A stretch of 64,000 nucleotides of DNA, taken from the NCBI GenBank assembly GCA_019637095.1, contig JAHBWG010000035.1, positions 1 through 64,000 on the forward strand, in the 5' to 3' direction. Below, in pieces: positions 23,934 through 61,042 of the stretch (its first letter is position 1; each line of letters opens with the position of its first letter). Below the pieces are notes generated by a model. That model saw nothing but the letters and a program-made list of their open reading frames with translations. It had not been told where the DNA came from and made no database searches. Source of the DNA: Sandaracinaceae bacterium (GTDB lineage: Bacteria; Myxococcota_A; Polyangia; Polyangiales; Sandaracinaceae). The position numbers and the translations under genes were made by a program.

Positions 23934-24548
23934 TCACCCGCCGGCGATGAGCGCCTTGGCGAGCGCGGCCCAGCGATCCGACTCCGCGCGCTCCTGGTCG
24001 GCGCGCTCGAGCAGGATGAGCTCGTGCTTGCGGAGCGGCGTCGGGCCGTCGGGATCGGGCGCGTGCAGCCAGAGCTTGTGCGCGCGGCGCCGGTGGTACT
24101 CGGACAGCGTGCGCGCCACGACGATCGAGGCGGCGCTGTCGATCGGATCGCCGAACCCCTCGGGGAGCTTCGTGTAGCGGCCGATGCGCGTGACATCGAC
24201 GCCCGCGAGGAAGGAGAGCCGCCGCAGATCCGCGAGCGTCGCGTGCGGGAGCACCTCGCCGCGGTCGAGGTCCATGCCGACCTTGCGCGCGTCGAGGATC
24301 ACCTCCCGCCGCAGATCCGCGTCGGCGAGGTCGAGCACCATCTCGCGCACGGGCTCCTCGACGCGCACGCGCTCGAGGCCGCGGAGCTTGCCGGCGACCT
24401 TGGTGACGCCCGCGACCGCGGCGCGCCAGCGGAACCGCTCGGGCACGCGCTGGCGCACGACCCGCACCGCACCCTGCATCTCGTTGCGACGCACGTGGTA
24501 GTGCGCCGCGTCCGTGACCCGAGATCCGGAGTTCATGGTCGGGGTCAT
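23934..24548 (-). CDS. Helical cytoplasmic protein, unrecognised
   Basis: 204 residues, rich in Arg, Leu and Glu, predicted largely helical, no signal peptide or membrane segment. Notable stretches are VLDLADADLRREVILDARK, LADLRRLSFLAGVDV and ASIVVARTLSEYHRRRAHK. I do not recognise a family. An alternative ATG at 24536 would shorten it by four residues. It is divergent from a small membrane-protein gene 63 bases away. Confidence 0.7.
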   Translation of the reverse strand: MTPTMNSGSRVTDAAHYHVRRNEMQGAVRVVRQRVPERFRWRAAVAGVTKVAGKLRGLERVRVEEPVREMVLDLADADLRREVILDARKVGMDLDRGEVLPHATLADLRRLSFLAGVDVTRIGRYTKLPEGFGDPIDSAASIVVARTLSEYHRRRAHKLWLHAPDPDGPTPLRKHELILLERADQERAESDRWAALAKALIAGG

Positions 24549-24958: not shown

Positions 24959-26707
24959 TCAGTTCGGGAGGCCGGCGAGGAGCTGGAGCAGCAAGTCGGC
25001 GCGCACCGCCCACGCGTACGGGGCGTCGGCCTCCACGGTGCGCGAGAGGCGCGTGTTCGCGTCGGTGACGCGGCGGCGCGTGCGCACGTTGCCGGCGTTG
25101 ATCGCGACGACGTGGCCGTTGCGCGCGAAGATGGGGCTGCCCGCGGTGCCGTCGTCCGAGAACGCGCTGTGCGCGACGAGGTGGCGCGCGACGGGCGGCG
25201 CCTCCGTCCCGTCGAACGCGGTGAGCCGGCCGACGACGCCGGTCGTCACGCCCGCGACCGGCGCGCCCTCGGCGGCGAGCAGCGACGGGAAGCCCAGGAC
25301 GAAGAGCTCGTCGCCCGCGCGCATCGCGGTGAGGTCCGTCATCGTCGCGATCTGGCAGTGGTCCGGCGCGGTGCCGCGGATCCGGATCATGCCGACGTCC
25401 GGGCTCGCAGGCGCGCTCGCCACGTAGCCGGGGTGCCGCCACATCTGCTGGATGACGAGCGGCTCGCCCAACCCGCGGTTGCGAACGGCGCGCACCGTGT
25501 CGCCCTGCGCCATCGCGCGCTCGACCGTGCCGACGCACTGCGCGCTCGTCGCGAGCAGGTCCCCGCGCACCGCGAACGCGCTGCAGACGACGGATCGGCG
25601 CGTCCCCGCGGTGCGCACGAGGGCCCACACCGCGCCCTGGTGCCGCTCGGCGATCGACGAGCCCGTCGCCTGCTCCTGACGGCCGATCTGATCGTTGAGC
25701 TCCTGGATGCGCTGGGAGAGGCGCGCGCGCTCCTCGCCCTCGCCCTCGCCCTGCTCCTCGAGGTCCGCGAGCTGGCGCTGGAGGCGCACGTTCTCGTCGC
25801 GCAGCTCCCGCTCCTGCTGCTGCGTGTAGAGGAAGAGCGCGACGACCGCGCCCGCCGTCGCGAGCAGCAGCAGCGTGATCGCGGCGAGCGCGACCTTGAG
25901 CCCTCGCGAGCTGCGCTTGGCGGCCTCGGTCGCCACCGCATGGATCGCGGCCGTCGAGCGGTTCGGGCTGCTCGCGCGCGTGCGCTCGGCCTGCTCGAGC
26001 GCCGCCTGGATCATCATCCCCACCGTGCGCTGGCCGTAGCGCTTCTCCCCGACGCCGGGCGGCGGCGTGGGCTGCCCCATCATCGGGGTCGGGTGCGGAG
26101 GCGACGAGCCGAGCCGGCCGATCGGCGGGGTCACGCCCGGCGGCACCCCCACGCCGTACGGCGGCGGCGTGAGCGGCGGCGCGCTCCCGTAAGGCGGAGG
26201 GGTGAGCGGAGGCGAGCTGCCAGGCCCGAACGGCGACGGCGGCGGCGTCGGGTGCACGATCGCCTCGCCGTGGGGGAGCGGGGAGAGCGGGACGTGCGAG
26301 GGCGGCGCGATCGGCGGGCCGATCGGCGTCGCAGGCCCGGTGACGTAGCTGCTCGGCGCGCCCGCGCCGAGCGGCGTCGCGGCGGCGGTGTGCGGCGAAC
26401 CGCGCCCGACGAGCTCGACGCGCACGCGCGGGCCGCCGAGCCCGAACTCGACCTCGTCTCCGCTCGCGAGGACGTGCCGCGTGATCCGCTGGCCGCCGAT
26501 CAGCGTGCCGTTCTTGCTGCCGACGTCGACGACGACCCACTGTCCACCTTCCTTGCGGATCTCCGCGTGCCGCCCCGACGCGTCGAGGTCGGCGTGCGGG
26601 TCGAAGGCGACCTCGTTGTCGGGGAGGCGGCCGAGGCGGATCACGTCGAGGTCGAGCTCGACGACCCGACCGGTGTGCGCGCCGAACGTCTGGTGCAGGC
26701 GAATCAT
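24959..26707 (-). CDS. FHA domain - transmembrane - degenerate trypsin-like protein
   Basis: 582 residues. An N-terminal FHA phosphopeptide-binding domain (about 22-100; RLGRLPDNE, SGRHAEI, SKNGT) is followed by a Pro-rich linker (103-220), a membrane helix (about 270-295), a coiled coil (296-345) and a trypsin/HtrA-like domain (about 355-560). The protease core is recognisable, but two of the three catalytic residues are replaced. TSAQC has Gln390 for His and GTAGSP has Ala522 for Ser; Asp437 in DVGMIRI remains. It should therefore bind rather than cut, linking cytoplasmic phosphorylation to the periplasm. It starts 11 bases after the PP2C gene in the same operon. Confidence 0.88.
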   Translation of the reverse strand: MIRLHQTFGAHTGRVVELDLDVIRLGRLPDNEVAFDPHADLDASGRHAEIRKEGGQWVVVDVGSKNGTLIGGQRITRHVLASGDEVEFGLGGPRVRVELVGRGSPHTAAATPLGAGAPSSYVTGPATPIGPPIAPPSHVPLSPLPHGEAIVHPTPPPSPFGPGSSPPLTPPPYGSAPPLTPPPYGVGVPPGVTPPIGRLGSSPPHPTPMMGQPTPPPGVGEKRYGQRTVGMMIQAALEQAERTRASSPNRSTAAIHAVATEAAKRSSRGLKVALAAITLLLLATAGAVVALFLYTQQQERELRDENVRLQRQLADLEEQGEGEGEERARLSQRIQELNDQIGRQEQATGSSIAERHQGAVWALVRTAGTRRSVVCSAFAVRGDLLATSAQCVGTVERAMAQGDTVRAVRNRGLGEPLVIQQMWRHPGYVASAPASPDVGMIRIRGTAPDHCQIATMTDLTAMRAGDELFVLGFPSLLAAEGAPVAGVTTGVVGRLTAFDGTEAPPVARHLVAHSAFSDDGTAGSPIFARNGHVVAINAGNVRTRRRVTDANTRLSRTVEADAPYAWAVRADLLLQLLAGLPN

Positions 26708-26718
26708 GCCCGCAGGGC

Positions 26719-28851
26719 TCAGAACGGGTTGGGCGGCGGGGTGACGCTCCCGCCCGTGCCGCCGCGCCGCGTGGCCGGGGGCGTCGTCGGAGGCGCGAGC
26801 GGGCGGACGACCGGCACGGGCGGCGTCGGTCGCGGCTCGCCGCCACCGCGGCGCGTCGAACCGGCCTGCTGCGAGCCGCCTTGCTCCGTCGTCGTCGGCG
26901 GCGGCGGGTCGGGCGTCGCTTCGGCGGGCTCGTCGGCGATGCTCTCCTGATCGAGGCTCACCGTGCTGGTCGCGCCGGCGGAGACGGACACGCTCTCGGG
27001 CCCCGCGAGCCGCGCCTCACCGTCGCGGACCTCGAGCTGGTACGCGCCGGGCGCGAGCTCGAGCGTCATTCCGTCGGAGACCGGACCGCGCGCCTCGCCG
27101 TTCACGAAGAGCGTGCCCTCCTCGACGTCCGTGTCGACCTGCACGGTCCCGGTCGCGGCGGCCGGGCTCGTCCCGGTCGCGCCCCCCGCCTGCGCCTCGC
27201 CGGCGCCGCGCTCTGCGCCCGTCGTCGGGCGCGGCGGCGGAGGAGGCGGCGTCTCGCTCGTCCCGGTCGCGCCGGAGAGCATCGCGGCGCCGCCGCCGTA
27301 GAAGTACCAGCCCGCGAGGGCGGCGCCGAGGAGCAGGAGCGCGACGACGAGGAGCACGCCGATCTTCGCGCCGCCGCCGGACGACGCGGCGTACTCGCCC
27401 GCTGCCGGCGCGACGTAGTCGTCGCGCTTCACGTCCGCGCCCGGCTTCTGCCCGGGCGCCTTCATCCGCATGTCGCGCGGCGGCAGCGACTTGCCGCGCA
27501 CGGTGTCGTCCGCCGGCGGCAGCGGGTACTGCTGATAACACGCCTTCGCGCCGTCCGGCGCGGGGAGGCCGTCGCCGTCGAAGTCCGCGACGATCACCGT
27601 GATGTTGTCGTGGCCGCCGCCCGCGTTCGCCATCTGCGTCAGGCGCGACGCGGCCTCGTTCTGGTCCTTCGTGTCGCGGAGGACCTCTTTGATCATCTCT
27701 GCGTGGACGAGACCCGAGAGGCCGTCCGAGCACATCATCAGGCGATCCCCGCGGCGGAGCTGGAGGAAGGTCAGATCGACCGTCACCTCCTCGGTCGTGC
27801 CGAGCGCCTGCAGGATGATGTTCGAGTGCTCGAAGGCCTCCGCCTCCTCTTCGGTGAGCTGACCCGCCTCGATGAGCTGGTTGACGAGCGACTGGTCCTT
27901 CGTGACGAGCACGAGCTCGTCGCCGCGCAGCACGTACGCGCGGCTGTCGCCGACCTGACCGACGAAGAGCGTGTCGTCGATCAGCCCCGCGAGCGTGGAC
28001 GTGGTGCCCATGCCGCGGCGCGAGCGATCCATCTTCGCGGCGCTGAAGATGCGGTGCCCCGCCTCCTCGATCGCGTAGACGAGGCGGCGCGCGAAGTCGT
28101 CGCGGTCGAGCGGCGGAGGCTCCGCGCTCATCACCTCGAGGATCGTGTCGACGGCCATCTGGCTCGCGACCTCGCCGGCCGCGGCGCCACCCATCCCGTC
28201 GCACACCGCGAACACGCAGCCGCGAGGGTCGAGCACGGTCTCGGTCGGCGCGCTCGGGTTGCGCGTCCCCGCCGCGACGTCCGCGACGAGGAAGTTGTCC
28301 TCGTTGTGCTCGCGCACGAGGCCGACGTCGGTGCGGCCGAAGTAGCGGATGCGGACCGGGCCGCCCGGCGTCACCACCGCGGCGGGCTGCGCGGGCGGGG
28401 CGCGCTCCGGATCGGGGAGCGTGCTGTCCGACGCGCGGGGCTCTTCCGCCGGCGTGGGCGCCGGCTCTCCGACCGCCTTCACCGCGGCGGCCTCGACCAC
28501 CACCGCGGGCGGCTCGGACGGAGGCGCGGACGGCGCCTCGACGATCACCGCGGGCGGCTCGGACGGAGGCGCGACGGGCGCCGGCGCGGCGATGCCCGGC
28601 CCCCCGGCCCAACGCGACACGAGATCCGCGAACGAGCCGGGGCCGCTCCGGAACCCGTTCGAGCGCACCGCCGCGGGCGCGCTCACCATCGGGGGCGCGC
28701 CCTGCTTGGTCGCTGCGCAGCCGGCCTCCGCCGGCGCCGGCTCCAACGCGTTCTGCGCCGTCTTCTCTTCGTCGATCTTCCCGAGCGCGGCGACCACCGC
28801 GTCGGTGAGCGACGATCCCCCGCGCGGCGGCTTGTGAGCCCCTCTGCTCAT
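26719..28851 (-). CDS. PP2C-type Ser/Thr phosphatase with membrane anchor and PEGA-like domain
   Basis: 710 residues. A disordered Ala/Pro-rich N-terminus (1-165) is followed by a PP2C domain (about 167-424) with all metal-binding motifs: EHNEDNF (181-187), CDGMGG (217-222), GDSRAY (301-306), SDGLSG (375-380) and GGHDNITVI (412-420). A single membrane helix (about 496-516) and a periplasmic PEGA-like beta domain (about 567-633, TLFVNGEARGP, LAPGAYQLEV) follow, then a Pro-rich tail. It removes phosphate from Ser/Thr targets, presumably those bound by the FHA proteins beside it. The ATG overlaps the stop of the upstream gene. Confidence 0.93.
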   Translation of the reverse strand: MSRGAHKPPRGGSSLTDAVVAALGKIDEEKTAQNALEPAPAEAGCAATKQGAPPMVSAPAAVRSNGFRSGPGSFADLVSRWAGGPGIAAPAPVAPPSEPPAVIVEAPSAPPSEPPAVVVEAAAVKAVGEPAPTPAEEPRASDSTLPDPERAPPAQPAAVVTPGGPVRIRYFGRTDVGLVREHNEDNFLVADVAAGTRNPSAPTETVLDPRGCVFAVCDGMGGAAAGEVASQMAVDTILEVMSAEPPPLDRDDFARRLVYAIEEAGHRIFSAAKMDRSRRGMGTTSTLAGLIDDTLFVGQVGDSRAYVLRGDELVLVTKDQSLVNQLIEAGQLTEEEAEAFEHSNIILQALGTTEEVTVDLTFLQLRRGDRLMMCSDGLSGLVHAEMIKEVLRDTKDQNEAASRLTQMANAGGGHDNITVIVADFDGDGLPAPDGAKACYQQYPLPPADDTVRGKSLPPRDMRMKAPGQKPGADVKRDDYVAPAAGEYAASSGGGAKIGVLLVVALLLLGAALAGWYFYGGGAAMLSGATGTSETPPPPPPRPTTGAERGAGEAQAGGATGTSPAAATGTVQVDTDVEEGTLFVNGEARGPVSDGMTLELAPGAYQLEVRDGEARLAGPESVSVSAGATSTVSLDQESIADEPAEATPDPPPPTTTEQGGSQQAGSTRRGGGEPRPTPPVPVVRPLAPPTTPPATRRGGTGGSVTPPPNPF

Positions 28852-30032
28852 CGTCCGCCCTCCATCTCGAAGCGAAACAGGTGCCTTCCGACGCGGAACT
28901 GATCGCCGGCCTTCAGCGTCCGCTCACCGCGGAAGCGCACGGCCGTCCCGTTGGACGAGCCGAGGTCCCGCAGCACGTAGCGCCGGCTCGCGCGATCGAT
29001 CGTCACGGCCGCGTGACGCCGCGACATGAACGGGTCGTCGGTGAAGACGAGATCTCCCTGCTCGCGGCCGATCACGGTCTCGTCACGATACAGGTAATGC
29101 ACGTCTCGTCCCACCCCTTCGGTGGTGTACTGTACGAGCCTGGCGACGCGTTGCACCTCCGGCGTGCCGAAGACCATCACGCCGTGCTGCGTCGCCGGCC
29201 CGAGCGGCAGCTCGGCCTCCCCGAGCACCTCGAATCGGAGCACCTGCTGGCCGAGCAGGAACATGTCGCCCGACACGAGATCGACGGGCTCGCGCACGCG
29301 GACGTAGACGCCGTTGACGCTGTCGAGGTCGCGCAGCACCGCGGCGCCGCCGCGGAGGCTGAGGCGGGCGTGACGCGGCGACAGGTAGGGATCGTCGGTC
29401 AGGACGATTTGCCCCTCCTCGCGCCCGATGTCGGTGTGGTCGTCGTGGATCGCATAGCGGCGGCCGTCGGACCCGTCCTTGAGGATGCTGACGAGCGCCG
29501 CGCGCCCCGCGGCCGACGCCGCGGGCGCGGGGACCGAGGACGGGGCCGGCAGATCGGCCGGCGGGCGCCGCACCTCCTCGCGAGGCGGCGCCGCGACCGG
29601 CGGCGCCTTGCCGGGCGGCGCCTTGCCGGGCTCCGACGCGGCCGACGACGGCGCGTCCGCGTACCGCGCGCCGCAGAACTTGCAGAAGTCCGCGCCGGGA
29701 TCGCCGACGCCGTAGCAGCGCCAGCAGACCGTGCCCTTCGCGCCCGCGACCGGCGGCGGCGAGTCGAGCGGCTGCTCGCGGGAGGCGGGCTCGCGGAGCG
29801 AGTAGCCGCAGTGGTTGCAGAACCGCATGTGCGACGCGTTGCGCCCGCCGCAGCGCGGGCACGCGGGCTCGCCCGACGCCGCGCCGCCGCCGCTGCGCGA
29901 GAGCCCGGTCGGCGGCGTCGCCATGCGGCTCGCCCCCTCGGACGGCTCCCAGTCGCCGAGGCGCGACCCGCAGTCCTGGCAGTACAAGCTGCTGTCGGGG
30001 TTCTGTGCGCCGCAGTTCTTGCAGGACTTCAC
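28848..30032 (-). CDS. Triple zinc-ribbon protein with two FHA domains
   Basis: 394 residues, cytoplasmic. Three zinc ribbons occur at C4-C7/C18-C21, C58-C61/C72-C75 and C103-C106/C117-C120, followed by a Pro-rich linker and two FHA domains (about 180-268 and 310-390). Both FHA domains keep the phosphothreonine-binding residues: GRE at 203 with SPRH, and GRE at 322 with SRRH and SSNG. Two FHA domains can bind two phosphosites at once, so this looks like an adaptor. The start is a GTG at 30032, served by a TTGACG-N17-TTCCAT promoter and apparently leaderless. First gene of the FHA/PP2C operon. Confidence 0.92.
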   Translation of the reverse strand: MKSCKNCGAQNPDSSLYCQDCGSRLGDWEPSEGASRMATPPTGLSRSGGGAASGEPACPRCGGRNASHMRFCNHCGYSLREPASREQPLDSPPPVAGAKGTVCWRCYGVGDPGADFCKFCGARYADAPSSAASEPGKAPPGKAPPVAAPPREEVRRPPADLPAPSSVPAPAASAAGRAALVSILKDGSDGRRYAIHDDHTDIGREEGQIVLTDDPYLSPRHARLSLRGGAAVLRDLDSVNGVYVRVREPVDLVSGDMFLLGQQVLRFEVLGEAELPLGPATQHGVMVFGTPEVQRVARLVQYTTEGVGRDVHYLYRDETVIGREQGDLVFTDDPFMSRRHAAVTIDRASRRYVLRDLGSSNGTAVRFRGERTLKAGDQFRVGRHLFRFEMEGGR

Positions 30033-30806: not shown

Positions 30807-31187
30807 ATGGAGATTCACCTGCGGAAGCGAGCCATCCGGCAGATTCGTCTGTCCGCTCACGATGCGATCGAGGAAGGGGACTCGGACACCCTCCGCGAGG
30901 ACATCATGGACGCCTTCAAGGACGACGACATCGAGGAGATCGAGCGCCGCATCGACAGCGGCGAGTTCTACGAGTTCGTCAGCGACGTCCTCGACGAGTG
31001 GTCCGGTGAGGAAGTGGAGGAGCTCTTCGAGCTGCTCGAACAGGCCCTCTCCGACGTCGGGATCGAGGTCAAGTACAGCGACCCGGAGTTCGACGACGAC
31101 GAAGAGGAAGAGGAAGAAGAAGAGGACGAGGAAGAGGCGGCGGAAGAGATCGAGGACTACGAGCCGCCCGAGGAAGAGGACATCTGA
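30807..31187 (+). CDS. Acidic protein with Glu-rich C-terminal tail
   Basis: 126 residues, very acidic. The helical N-terminal domain (about 1-95) contains REDIMDAFKDDDIEEIERR and SDVLDEWSGEEVEELFELL, and the last 30 residues are almost all Glu and Asp. I recognise no family. An acidic tail of this type may bind basic proteins or metal ions. A GAGGGG motif precedes the chosen ATG; an ATG at 30777 overlaps the promoter and is rejected. Its end overlaps the convergent TPR lipoprotein gene by 31 bases. Confidence 0.75.
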   Translation: MEIHLRKRAIRQIRLSAHDAIEEGDSDTLREDIMDAFKDDDIEEIERRIDSGEFYEFVSDVLDEWSGEEVEELFELLEQALSDVGIEVKYSDPEFDDDEEEEEEEEDEEEAAEEIEDYEPPEEEDI

Positions 31188-58016: not shown

Positions 58017-59528
58017 GTGAACAAGGTCGATGTGGCCATCCTCGGCGGGGGACTGGCCGGAAATCTCCTGGCCCGCCAGCTTCGTCGCACGCGCGACGAC
58101 CTCAGCGTCCTCGTCGTCGAGCCGTCCCACGAGACGAGCTGGAAGGTCGGCGAGTCCACCGTGGAGATCGCCAGCGACTACCTCGTCCGGCGGCACGGGC
58201 TCTCTGCCTATCTCTACGACCGGCAGCTCCCGAAGAACGGCCTACGCTTCTTCTTCGACACGCCGGACAAGGACGCCGACCTCTTCGAGATGAGCGAGCT
58301 CGGCTCCGATCACCTGCCGCTCTTCCCGACGTTCCAGCTCGACCGCGCCCGGTTCGAGGCGGACCTGCGCGTGATGACGCGCGCCGCGGGCGCCGAGCTG
58401 CGCGAGGGCGAGACCGTCCGCTCGATCGAGCCGGGCACGCCGCACCGCGTGACGGTGCGCAGCGACGGCCAGGAGCGCGCCGTCGAGGCGCGCTGGGTGG
58501 TCGACTGCACGGGGCGCGCGCGCGTCCTCTCGCGCACCCTCGACTCGGGCACCGAGGTGGACCACGGCATGGCCGCCGTGTGGGGGCGCTTCTCGAACGT
58601 CGTCGACCTCGACGCGATGCCGAACGCCGCGTGGCGCGGGCGCGTGCGCTGGACCTCGCGCGTCCTGTCGACCAACCACTTCTGCTATCCGGGCTACTGG
58701 ATCTGGTTCATCCCGCTCGGCGAGGGCGTGATCTCGGTCGGCGTCGTCGGCGAGAAGGCGATCTTCCCGCGCGGCGCGCGCACGCCGGAGGGCTTCCTCG
58801 CGTTCCTGCGCGAGCACGCCGCGGTGAAGGCGCTCCTCGAGCCCGCCGAGCTGCTCGACGTGCACGGCTTCTCGCAGCTCGCCTACGGGACCAAGCAGTT
58901 CTTCGACGGCGAGCGGCGCCTCGCGATGGTCGGCGACGCGGCCGCGTTCCTCGACCCGTTCTACAGCCCGGGCTCGGACTTCATCTCGGTGCAGAACGAC
59001 ATCGTGACGGACCTGATCCGGCGCGACGCGGCGGGCGAGGACGTCGGCGCGCTCGCGGGCGACTTCGATCGCTTCATGCAGATGCGGTTCGAGGCGACGC
59101 TGCTGCTCTACCAGCAGCAGTACAAGGCGCTCGGCAGCTTCGACATCATGAGCGCCAAGTGGAACTACGACCTCGCGACCTACTACAACCTCTGGCTCGA
59201 CGACTACATGGGCGACAAGCACCTCGACCCGCGCCACGTGCGCGCGCAGGTGCGCCGCAAGAAGTTCATCCTCGAGGCGCTCGCGGCGTTCCGCGATCGC
59301 TTCCGCGACATGGCGGCGCGCACGCTGGCCGACGGCCGCTACCACCGGCACAACCTCGGGATGTACAACCCGGGCACGAACCTCGACTGGTTCTGGCGCG
59401 AGGTCGGCACCGGCCGCACGCGGCGCCGCCAGAACGAGGTGACGGCGAGCATCTTCGAGGCGATCGAGCAACAGACCGCGTGGGCCTTCGAAGCGGACAG
59501 GCGCGGCACGGCGAGGAAGCAAGCGTGA
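58017..59528 (+). CDS. Flavin-dependent halogenase-like oxidoreductase, copy 1
   Basis: 503 residues. The N-terminal Rossmann motif GGGLAGN (10-16) binds FAD, and the pocket motif WKVGEST carries Lys43, equivalent to the catalytic lysine of flavin halogenases. WIWFIP (228-233) is the halogenase WxWxIP signature, and VGDAAAFLDPFYSPGSDF is the second FAD motif. The enzyme should be an FADH2-dependent halogenase or closely related flavoenzyme; a substrate is not evident. Starts at GTG (MNKVDVAILGG). The downstream paralogue overlaps by four bases. Confidence 0.9.
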   Translation: MNKVDVAILGGGLAGNLLARQLRRTRDDLSVLVVEPSHETSWKVGESTVEIASDYLVRRHGLSAYLYDRQLPKNGLRFFFDTPDKDADLFEMSELGSDHLPLFPTFQLDRARFEADLRVMTRAAGAELREGETVRSIEPGTPHRVTVRSDGQERAVEARWVVDCTGRARVLSRTLDSGTEVDHGMAAVWGRFSNVVDLDAMPNAAWRGRVRWTSRVLSTNHFCYPGYWIWFIPLGEGVISVGVVGEKAIFPRGARTPEGFLAFLREHAAVKALLEPAELLDVHGFSQLAYGTKQFFDGERRLAMVGDAAAFLDPFYSPGSDFISVQNDIVTDLIRRDAAGEDVGALAGDFDRFMQMRFEATLLLYQQQYKALGSFDIMSAKWNYDLATYYNLWLDDYMGDKHLDPRHVRAQVRRKKFILEALAAFRDRFRDMAARTLADGRYHRHNLGMYNPGTNLDWFWREVGTGRTRRRQNEVTASIFEAIEQQTAWAFEADRRGTARKQA

Positions 59529-61042
59529 AGAAGGTCGACGTCGCGATCCTCGGCGGCGGGCTCGCCGGGAACCTGCTCGCGCGGCAGCTGCGCCGCGAGG
59601 TCCCGGGCGCGTCCGTCATGGTGATCGAGCAGAGCCACGAGCGCGGCTGGAAGGTCGGCGAGTCGACCGTCGAGATCGCCGCGCACTACCTCGGCGTCAA
59701 GCTCGGGCTGAGCACCTACCTCTACGACCAGCACCTGCCGAAGAACGGGCTGCGGTTCTTCTTCGACACGGATCGGCGCGACGCCACGCTCACGCAGATG
59801 AGCGAGGTCGGGACGGACCGGCCGCCGCCGACCCCGAGCTTCCAGCTCGACCGCGCCCGCATCGAGCAAGACCTCTTGCGAATGAACACCGAGGACGGCG
59901 TCGACGTCCGCGTCGGCGCGCCCGCGCGGAACCTGGACCTCGACGCGCGCACCTTCGCGCTCGAGGGCGAGACGATCGGGGCGCGCTGGATCGTCGACGG
60001 CACCGGCCGCGCGAGCACGATCGCGCGCATGCGCGACCTGCGGCTGCCGATGGAGGCCGTCCACCCGATCGCGAGCGTGTGGGGCCGCTACGAGGGCGTG
60101 CGCGACTTCGACGACGTCCCCGATCGCGCCTGGCGCGCGCGCAGCCGGTACGTGGCGCGCTCGCTGAGCACCAACCACTTCATGTACCCCGGCTACTGGA
60201 TCTGGTTCATCCCGCTGGGCCGCGGGGTGACCAGCGTCGGGATCGTCGGAGAGAAGCACGTCTTCAAGCGCGGGAGCCGGACGCCGGAGGGGTTCCTCTC
60301 GCTCGTGCGCGAGCACGGCGCGCCGGCGGCGATGATGGAGGGCGCGCGGCCGCTCGACCTCGAGGGCTTCACGCAGCTCGCGTACGCGACCAAGCGCTTC
60401 TTCCACGGCGGCGAGCGCTGGGCGCTGCTCGGCGACGCGGGCGCGTTCCACGACCCGTTCTACAGCCCCGGGTCGGACTTCATCTCGCTCGAGTGCGACT
60501 TCACGACGGACCTGATCCGCCGCGAGCTCGCGGGCGAGGACGTCACGGATCGGGCCCGCACGTACGACGCGTTCATGCAGTTCCGGTACGACGCGACGCT
60601 CCTGCTCTACAAGGACCTCTACCCCTGCTTCGGCTGCTACGATCTCATGCGGGTCAAGCTGAACTTCGACCTGGGCTGCTACTACAACCTCTGGCTCGAC
60701 CCGATCGTGAAGGGCGAGCACCTCGACGAGAAGTTCCTGATGAGCGAGCTCGCGCGAGGCCCCGAGACGCTCGCCGCGCTCGAGCACTTCTCGAAGCTCT
60801 TCCAGCGCGCGCGCGAGCACCTCGTCGCGACGGGGGCGTACTACGAGAAGAACCTCGGCGAGTACAACGTGGGCGTCGACTGCCTGCGACACTGGCTCGA
60901 GGAGGTCGGCACGCCGCGCAAGCGCCGCCAGATCCGCGAGCGCACCGAGGAGGTCTTCAACTACGGCCGCCGCGAGGCGCTGAAGCTCCTCGGCGAGGAC
61001 GACGGCAAGACGCTGCGCCTCGACGAGCTCGTCCCCGCCTGA
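59525..61042 (+). CDS. Flavin-dependent halogenase-like oxidoreductase, copy 2
   Basis: 505 residues, a paralogue of the preceding gene with the same motifs: GGGLAGN (10-16), WKVGEST with Lys43, GYWIWFIP, and GDAGAFHDPFYSPGSDF. Similarity continues to the C-terminal helical domain (YYNLWLDPIVKGEHL versus YYNLWLDDYMGDKHL). Gene duplication is the simplest explanation; the two could make a heteromer or act on different positions. GTG 59525 overlaps the previous stop (GTGA). No flavin reductase gene is adjacent, so reduced flavin must come from elsewhere. Confidence 0.9.
   Translation: MKKVDVAILGGGLAGNLLARQLRREVPGASVMVIEQSHERGWKVGESTVEIAAHYLGVKLGLSTYLYDQHLPKNGLRFFFDTDRRDATLTQMSEVGTDRPPPTPSFQLDRARIEQDLLRMNTEDGVDVRVGAPARNLDLDARTFALEGETIGARWIVDGTGRASTIARMRDLRLPMEAVHPIASVWGRYEGVRDFDDVPDRAWRARSRYVARSLSTNHFMYPGYWIWFIPLGRGVTSVGIVGEKHVFKRGSRTPEGFLSLVREHGAPAAMMEGARPLDLEGFTQLAYATKRFFHGGERWALLGDAGAFHDPFYSPGSDFISLECDFTTDLIRRELAGEDVTDRARTYDAFMQFRYDATLLLYKDLYPCFGCYDLMRVKLNFDLGCYYNLWLDPIVKGEHLDEKFLMSELARGPETLAALEHFSKLFQRAREHLVATGAYYEKNLGEYNVGVDCLRHWLEEVGTPRKRRQIRERTEEVFNYGRREALKLLGEDDGKTLRLDELVPA

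Follow-up and report, generated by a model that had tools for sequence, protein, structure and literature searches.

The window discussed here is the whole stretch of DNA that was analysed: 64,000 nucleotides (positions 1 to 64,000 of contig JAHBWG010000035.1, assembly GCA_019637095.1) from a Sandaracinaceae bacterium of the order Polyangiales, a myxobacterium whose genome measures 9.25 Mb. Its minus strand carries a tight operon of three genes, called A, B and C in the following (24959-30032). A and B share 4 bases, and the gap between B and C is 11 bases. An earlier reading of the letters alone, referred to below as the original prediction, took the three products for a phospho-signalling system that crosses the envelope: an adaptor with zinc ribbons and two FHA domains, a PP2C phosphatase with a PEGA-like periplasmic domain, and an FHA protein whose membrane helix leads to a trypsin-like domain with two of its three catalytic residues lost. 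Open reading frames and Pfam domain matches bear out this architecture, and the topology holds as well, with one membrane helix each in B and C and positive charge on the FHA side of the latter. The features are collected in Table 1.

Table 1. Features of the A-B-C operon, in positions of the window.
Feature	Position	Strand	Description
Gene A	28848..30032	-	394 aa, GTG start; zinc ribbons and two FHA domains; soluble, without membrane helix
A, three zinc ribbons	29673..30023	-	12 Cys at 4, 7, 18, 21 / 58, 61, 72, 75 / 103, 106, 117, 120; CxxC..CxxC sets
A, FHA 1 (201-261)	29250..29432	-	R204, S218, H221, N240 invariant across an alignment of 28 A proteins
A, FHA 2 (about 322-387)	28872..29069	-	R323, S337, R338, H340, N361 invariant across the same 28 A proteins
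Gene B	26719..28851	-	710 aa; PP2C, one membrane helix, PEGA-like tail
B, PP2C catalytic domain (174-422)	27586..28332	-	Pfam PP2C_2, 1.6e-14
B, membrane helix (about 497-515)	27307..27363	-	From hydropathy
B, PEGA-like domain	26920..27159	-	Far side of the membrane; from profile-profile similarity and predicted structure
Gene C	24959..26707	-	582 aa; FHA, proline-rich linker, membrane helix, coiled coil, degenerate trypsin/HtrA fold
C, FHA (22-88)	26444..26644	-	R27, S44, H47, N66 invariant across an alignment of 21 C proteins
C, membrane helix (about 275-293)	25829..25885	-	Single hydrophobic helix, positive charge on FHA side
C, trypsin/HtrA-fold domain (about 355-582)	24962..25645	-	From Pfam, profile alignment and AlphaFold model
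C, Cys375	25583..25585	-	Pairs with Cys391; disulphide of chymotrypsin 42-58 type
C, Cys391	25535..25537	-	Directly after Gln390
C, Gln390	25538..25540	-	CAG; position of catalytic His
C, Asp437	25397..25399	-	GAC; position of catalytic Asp
C, Ala522	25142..25144	-	GCG; position of catalytic Ser

The central observation concerns the ectodomain of C. It is matched by Pfam Trypsin_2 over residues 374-535 (2.5e-9; 38.5 bits, cut-off 27.6) and by Trypsin (1.8e-5), and its AlphaFold model (predicted local distance difference test, pLDDT, 89) resembles MucD (Z 22.5), DegS (Z 22.1) and HtrA1, with Z values of 21-22.5 overall. When a profile of 21 orthologous domains is aligned with elastase, the triad columns of C fall on the AHC and DIALL motifs, and its two cysteines fall on the disulphide beside the catalytic histidine. 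Since this alignment and the HtrA-type fold match agree, the triad positions are correct and not an artefact of alignment, and the substitutions of the original prediction stand: the His-Asp-Ser set of the HtrA/S1C proteases reads Gln390, Asp437 and Ala522 in this protein. An alternative catalytic set elsewhere in C was rejected on sequence and fold, which place the triad unambiguously; no other nucleophile was looked for in the coordinates of the model. Conventional protease activity is thus not possible for C, judging from its sequence, and its degenerate active site is of the kind found in MamO-type pseudoproteases. The domain is preceded by a well-recognized FHA (Pfam 4.7e-16; 59.4 bits, cut-off 20.7); a PDZ domain was sought in C and gave no match at E 0.1. 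The change at position 390 occurs in the window's assembly alone, so that one wrong base is possible there; the change at position 522 is common to three other genomes.

As for the partners of C, the phosphatase B is of Stp1/IreP type: it passes the NCBIfam model Stp1_PP2C_phos (NF033484) with 231.8 bits for a cut-off of 230, and its metal-binding residues (E184/D185, D218, D376 and D415/N416), together with G219, are invariant in 33/33 aligned B proteins. In A, the zinc ribbons are matched by Pfam DZR (1.1e-12) and also by Zn_Ribbon_1, and the two FHA stretches by the FHA family (E 2.1e-25; 89.4 bits, cut-off 20.7); against the FhaB model, A scores 87.2 bits, below the cut-off of 125. To judge from these residues, B has the catalytic set of a PP2C phosphatase, and the three FHA domains of the operon have the residues that bind phosphothreonine.

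The tail of B is more elusive. At E 0.01, the B of the window has no hit to PEGA (PF08308), which matches 1/33 B proteins, but a profile of the tails of 22 B proteins aligns with genuine PEGA domains from the same genome (hhalign 97.7%, E 1.7e-12, 65 columns). The original call was therefore right where Pfam misses the domain, and the label is kept at "PEGA-like". The window's genome has 89 PEGA matches, which makes such domains a common building block there. By sequence, the best solved relative of the tail is a hydrazine dehydrogenase assembly factor (6hif_Y, E 5e-8). The structure model of the tail (pLDDT 90.7) is matched best by a chain of 9k1u, the RtkS-PpkA complex (Z 8.6, root-mean-square deviation 2.6, 73 aligned), in which chain D is the kinase according to the chain names of the entry; the next rows lie within 1 Z unit, so that the match to the kinase chain is a lead only.

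The protease fold and the PEGA-like tail across the order

How did a degenerate protease come to be encoded with a phosphatase? The survey began with C as query against 56 genomes of the order, of which 40 matched at 1e-10. Of the forty stretches fetched, 39 surround C matches; the remaining one surrounds an FHA match within the genome of the window. The FHA domain alone gives 21 further matches in that genome, which were not used as orthologues. In 32 of the 40 fetched loci B adjoins C, which supports a conserved gene order. With the protease domain as query, a broader search matched 58/183 genomes of the order at 1e-8, and 60 protease domains, from C and from the tandem copies called C', were aligned. 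Families and genera of the order are denoted below by f and g numbers, single genomes by G and loci by L numbers.

Orthologues with intact His and Ser, which the original prediction itself had named as counting against it, do exist, so that on this point it is not supported as it was worded: the triad is complete in 38/60 domains, including all of those in families f5 (13/13) and f7 (5/5). The positions differ in how well they are kept. Both cysteines are present in 60/60 domains, Asp in 59/60, His in 51/60 and Ser in 38/60; Ser is lost with His kept in 13, both are lost in nine, and His is lost with Ser kept in none; Ser goes either before His or along with it. In f1, the window's family, the three other genomes that bear the domain have lost Ser only (to Ala), while the window has lost His too. 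In f6, Ser is replaced by Met, and each of the eight f4 domains is degenerate at His and Ser alike. Outside the order, FHA-helix-protease proteins from five families have intact motifs in 7/7 cases, which suggests that an active, intact protease was probably the ancestral state. With intact orthologues and an intact outgroup, the loss of the triad is an event of particular lineages and not a property of the family of proteins. As an observation on the side, C is followed immediately in the operons of f5 by one more gene, about 570-625 aa long, that contains an FHA (L039, L069, L071, L073, L074 and L075).

The operons of f12 contain two tandem copies, which form separate clades. In C' the triad is intact in 15/15 cases, and the FHA is gone or degraded; in C, which keeps the FHA, Ser has become Asn in 9/14 cases and is intact in 5/14, two genera having lost it. 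Ser and Asn codons are one base apart, so that some of the changes in genus g82 may be reversals. Relics of the FHA are seen in the C' copies L109:7892-9322 and L113:7691-8998, where the positions of the conserved Arg and Asn seem to have changed. From the sequences, the decay of the FHA in C' would be reciprocal to the loss of Ser in C.

A tree built on A and B arranges these states. It has 51 rows (G068, with a dead domain and no B on its contig, stands outside them, and L038, which is the same contig as that of G008, is counted once), and a single branch (support 100/98) splits 24 rows of f1, f2, f3, f4 and f6 from 27 rows of f5, f7 and f12. Every row on the 27-row side has at least one intact protease. 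The 24-row side has no intact triad: 12 rows have dead domains and 12 have no domain, and a lenient search of these 12 loci found no protease domain. Of the 12 C proteins without the domain, 11 stop no more than 16 residues past a membrane helix, and one has no helix. The rows without the domain include four further genomes from the family of the window, in which it has been deleted. The sister row of the window (G002, support 97/82) keeps His, which places the loss of Ser before that of His in the window's lineage. Parsimony on this tree, with the 50 rows that have a state (G178, whose C is cut by the contig end, was left out), requires at least five changes of the Ser state and at least four of domain presence.

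The same split separates the tails of B: the PEGA-like tail is present in 24/24 rows of the group with dead or deleted domains and in 0/27 rows of the intact group; the tail profile was made from 22 of those 24. Sixty further loci were added later, giving a tree of 111 rows, with G004 (frame break) and G018 (contig end) left out of the tail counts. Over all loci, the tail is present in 41, none with an intact protease, and absent in 68, of which 27 have an intact protease. The simple rule that either an intact protease or a PEGA-like tail is present in each operon held for the first 51 rows and fails in the further loci, where those with neither are 40/40 of f12 plus G009. These 40 loci were picked mostly from genomes without a strong match to the protease domain, and they are thus uninformative on the frequency of C in f12.

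Are the dead domains still under selection? In f1 and f4, their identity between genera is.51-.65, compared with.77-.85 for their own FHA (seven pairs; ratio of nonsynonymous to synonymous substitution rates, dN/dS,.33-.64); for live domains the values are.84-.93 and.79-.92 (five pairs; dN/dS.08-.24). The near-identical pair G005-G008 is left out of these ranges. That the dead domains of f1 and f4 change faster than their own FHA indicates weakened selection.

The surroundings of the operon are also shared. In many loci A, B and C are preceded, in this order, by a threonine aldolase-like gene, a TPR gene, a gene for an acidic protein that runs on the opposite strand, and a gene for a small envelope protein. 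B is detected in 170/183 genomes of the order, which makes A-B the core and C an addition. In the window, the small acidic protein (30807-31187, plus strand), upstream of the operon, has no family match, and its first ~90 residues are strongly conserved across the order (54-83% identity). Just downstream of C, a gene for 204 aa (23934-24548, minus strand) has no match in Pfam or NCBIfam and holds the same place in f1 relatives with or without the protease domain of C. Farther away, two tandem genes at 58017-61042 (plus strand) have near-identical starts (VNKVDVAILGGGLAGN / VKKVDVAILGGGLAGN), a recent-looking duplication.

A proposed signalling module with a retired protease

The reading we lean towards, with a little more than even confidence, is that A-B-C forms a phosphothreonine module spanning the inner membrane, in which C derives from an active FHA-protease and is now non-catalytic and under relaxed constraint, with input arriving mainly through the tail of B. 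Its steps can be pictured as follows. C would once have been a complete His-Asp-Ser protease; Ser would have been lost first, in common with the sister genera, and His later on the branch of the window, while near relatives discarded the protease domain and kept the FHA and the helix. A Ser/Thr kinase encoded elsewhere may phosphorylate either some client or a component of the module. Soluble A and membrane-anchored C could then use their FHA domains to gather the phosphorylated partners at the membrane, and B would reverse the phosphothreonine mark. Periplasmic input would now come mainly through the PEGA-like domain of B, and the ectodomain of C would no longer cut but would persist, less tightly constrained, in a binding or structural role with which its relatives dispense.

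A bolder version, which we regard as possible and hold only tentatively, is an exchange of modules: in the ancestor of the clade to which the window belongs, B gained the PEGA-like domain and with it the input of the FHA-protease, whereupon the protease would have died in the order Ser, His, domain, while in f12 the gene was duplicated and the jobs were split. To judge from its structure model, the tail of B would share its fold class with the periplasmic domain of PpkA, a kinase of the T6SS (type VI secretion system). If the exchange took place, phosphothreonine docking and periplasmic proteolysis would be separable outputs of one ancient receptor.

Several results weigh against the favoured reading. 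The exclusion between tail and intact protease is complete, but it is essentially one deep historical split: the tail state changes twice on the 111-row tree, most simply by one gain and a loss in G009. In addition, 41 sampled operons have neither the tail nor an intact protease, so that the ectodomain of C was not simply "replaced". In genus g78 of f12, all six genomes have Asn instead of Ser; dN/dS is.14 for the dead domain and.17 for its live tandem copy (15 pairs, NG86). Since the dead copy is as constrained as the live one, catalysis can be lost without relaxed constraint. Within f1, the dead domain is best conserved in its active-site segments, with 25/32 positions identical versus 92/186 elsewhere (p 0.0035, the segments having been chosen post hoc). 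Finally, this analysis identified neither a kinase nor a ligand for the module. Kinase-like neighbours occur at several loci.

The last two sequence patterns, the conserved cleft and the low dN/dS of the g78 copies without Ser, would favour the main rival view, in which the ectodomain of C is a dedicated sensor, selected to bind a peptide, a glycan or a metal in the old cleft and to signal inward through the FHA. The original prediction had likewise called a binding function likely. The fold and its disulphide, kept in all aligned domains, fit this idea, and there are precedents in MamO (in the passages of PMC4794232 that treat it) and RsgI9 (likewise, PMC12203970). However, live groups show the same bias toward the active site as f1, which could reflect core packing, and the retained Asp is weak evidence for binding because it sits in a core strand. 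The rate of change of the dead domains in f1 and f4, and the deletion of the whole domain in the window's own family, also run counter to it. A sensor of this type is thus rather unlikely, and the original claim of a binding function is supported in part, by the conserved cysteines and Asp, the cleft of f1 and the g78 copies, set against the decay seen in f1 and f4. It is quite improbable that in f12-type operons the dead, FHA-bearing copy serves to regulate or position a live tandem copy in the manner of MamE and MamO, the window having inherited a dead copy whose partner was lost or never existed. The division of f12 into intact C' and frequently Ser-to-Asn C, with the FHA lost or degraded in C', would suit such pairs, as would the MamE duplications that repeatedly yield one dead copy (described in the relevant part of PMC4794232). 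But C and C' are separate clades within f12, and the window's genome has no C' at E 1e-8.

The combination of PP2C and FHA also recalls threonine phosphorylation pathways of the T6SS, and the module might act on such machinery elsewhere in the genome; the first rank of the 9k1u kinase chain for the tail of B points the same way. A VipB-like sheath match lies on another contig (C46:41812-42555 of the window's genome, G000) and may belong to a T6SS or to another contractile system. We consider this link very improbable, given that C (22.5 bits) and A (34.1 bits) score far below the cut-off of 120.25 of the TagH/VI_FHA model TIGR03354, and that the Z lead of 9k1u over the next row is below 1. No T6SS family was found among the 29 window open reading frames scanned, a subset of the window's genes, which agrees with the original prediction that such genes do not accompany the operon.

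For the retired protease of the favoured reading, the interest lies in the series as much as in its end. Most pseudoenzymes are known from their final state only, whereas relatives of C, at a single gene position of the operon, offer a graded series, from intact triad to loss of Ser, loss of Ser and His, and loss of the domain, together with tandem copies that split functions. It is a testable system for how a membrane receptor may change its sensor domain while the FHA and PP2C logic stays fixed, and its hosts are bacteria with large and poorly mapped Ser/Thr signalling.

Relation to known systems

A search of open PMC text for this operon found no paper on it. Its parts are of known kinds, while their combination and the graded decay are new. 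The best structural matches to the C model, at Z about 22, are DegS, AlgW and MucD of the HtrA family. DegS is anchored in the membrane with its protease in the periplasm. These proteins have an active triad and a PDZ domain, whereas the window's C is without either and has an FHA on the cytoplasmic side. With regard to the FHA and PP2C logic, the mycobacterial FhaA/FhaB-PstP-PknA/PknB operon joins FHA proteins and a membrane PP2C and is not known to involve a T6SS. That operon holds its kinases, while no kinase adjoins A-B-C.

The closest parallel for the decay itself is MamO/MamE. As far as the passages of PMC4794232 on these proteins go, they are Trypsin-2 proteins of the HtrA fold in which the triad was lost repeatedly by lineage, often beside an active copy in active/inactive pairs, and a noncatalytic role was shown for MamO. 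In C, by contrast, the fold is linked through the membrane to an FHA, and a PP2C gene accompanies it; a metal role is known for none of these C proteins. RsgI9 of Clostridium thermocellum (7sjy) is a membrane signalling protein with a protease-like ectodomain reported to bind polysaccharide (PMC12203970); in the portion of that report that describes it, it is an anti-sigma factor with neither FHA nor phosphatase partner. A fusion of FHA and trypsin has been in print since 2008, in the entry for NP_811686.1 of Bacteroides thetaiotaomicron (PMC2605481), an FHA-FHA-trypsin protein with two FHA domains against one in C, the likeness being one of domain description alone. Lastly, the PpkA/PppA/Fha/RtkS set of the Serratia T6SS, in the section of PMC6082577 devoted to it, uses a periplasmic domain to gate an FHA/PP2C switch: there the kinase carries the periplasmic domain, whereas in A-B-C it is the phosphatase B that carries one.

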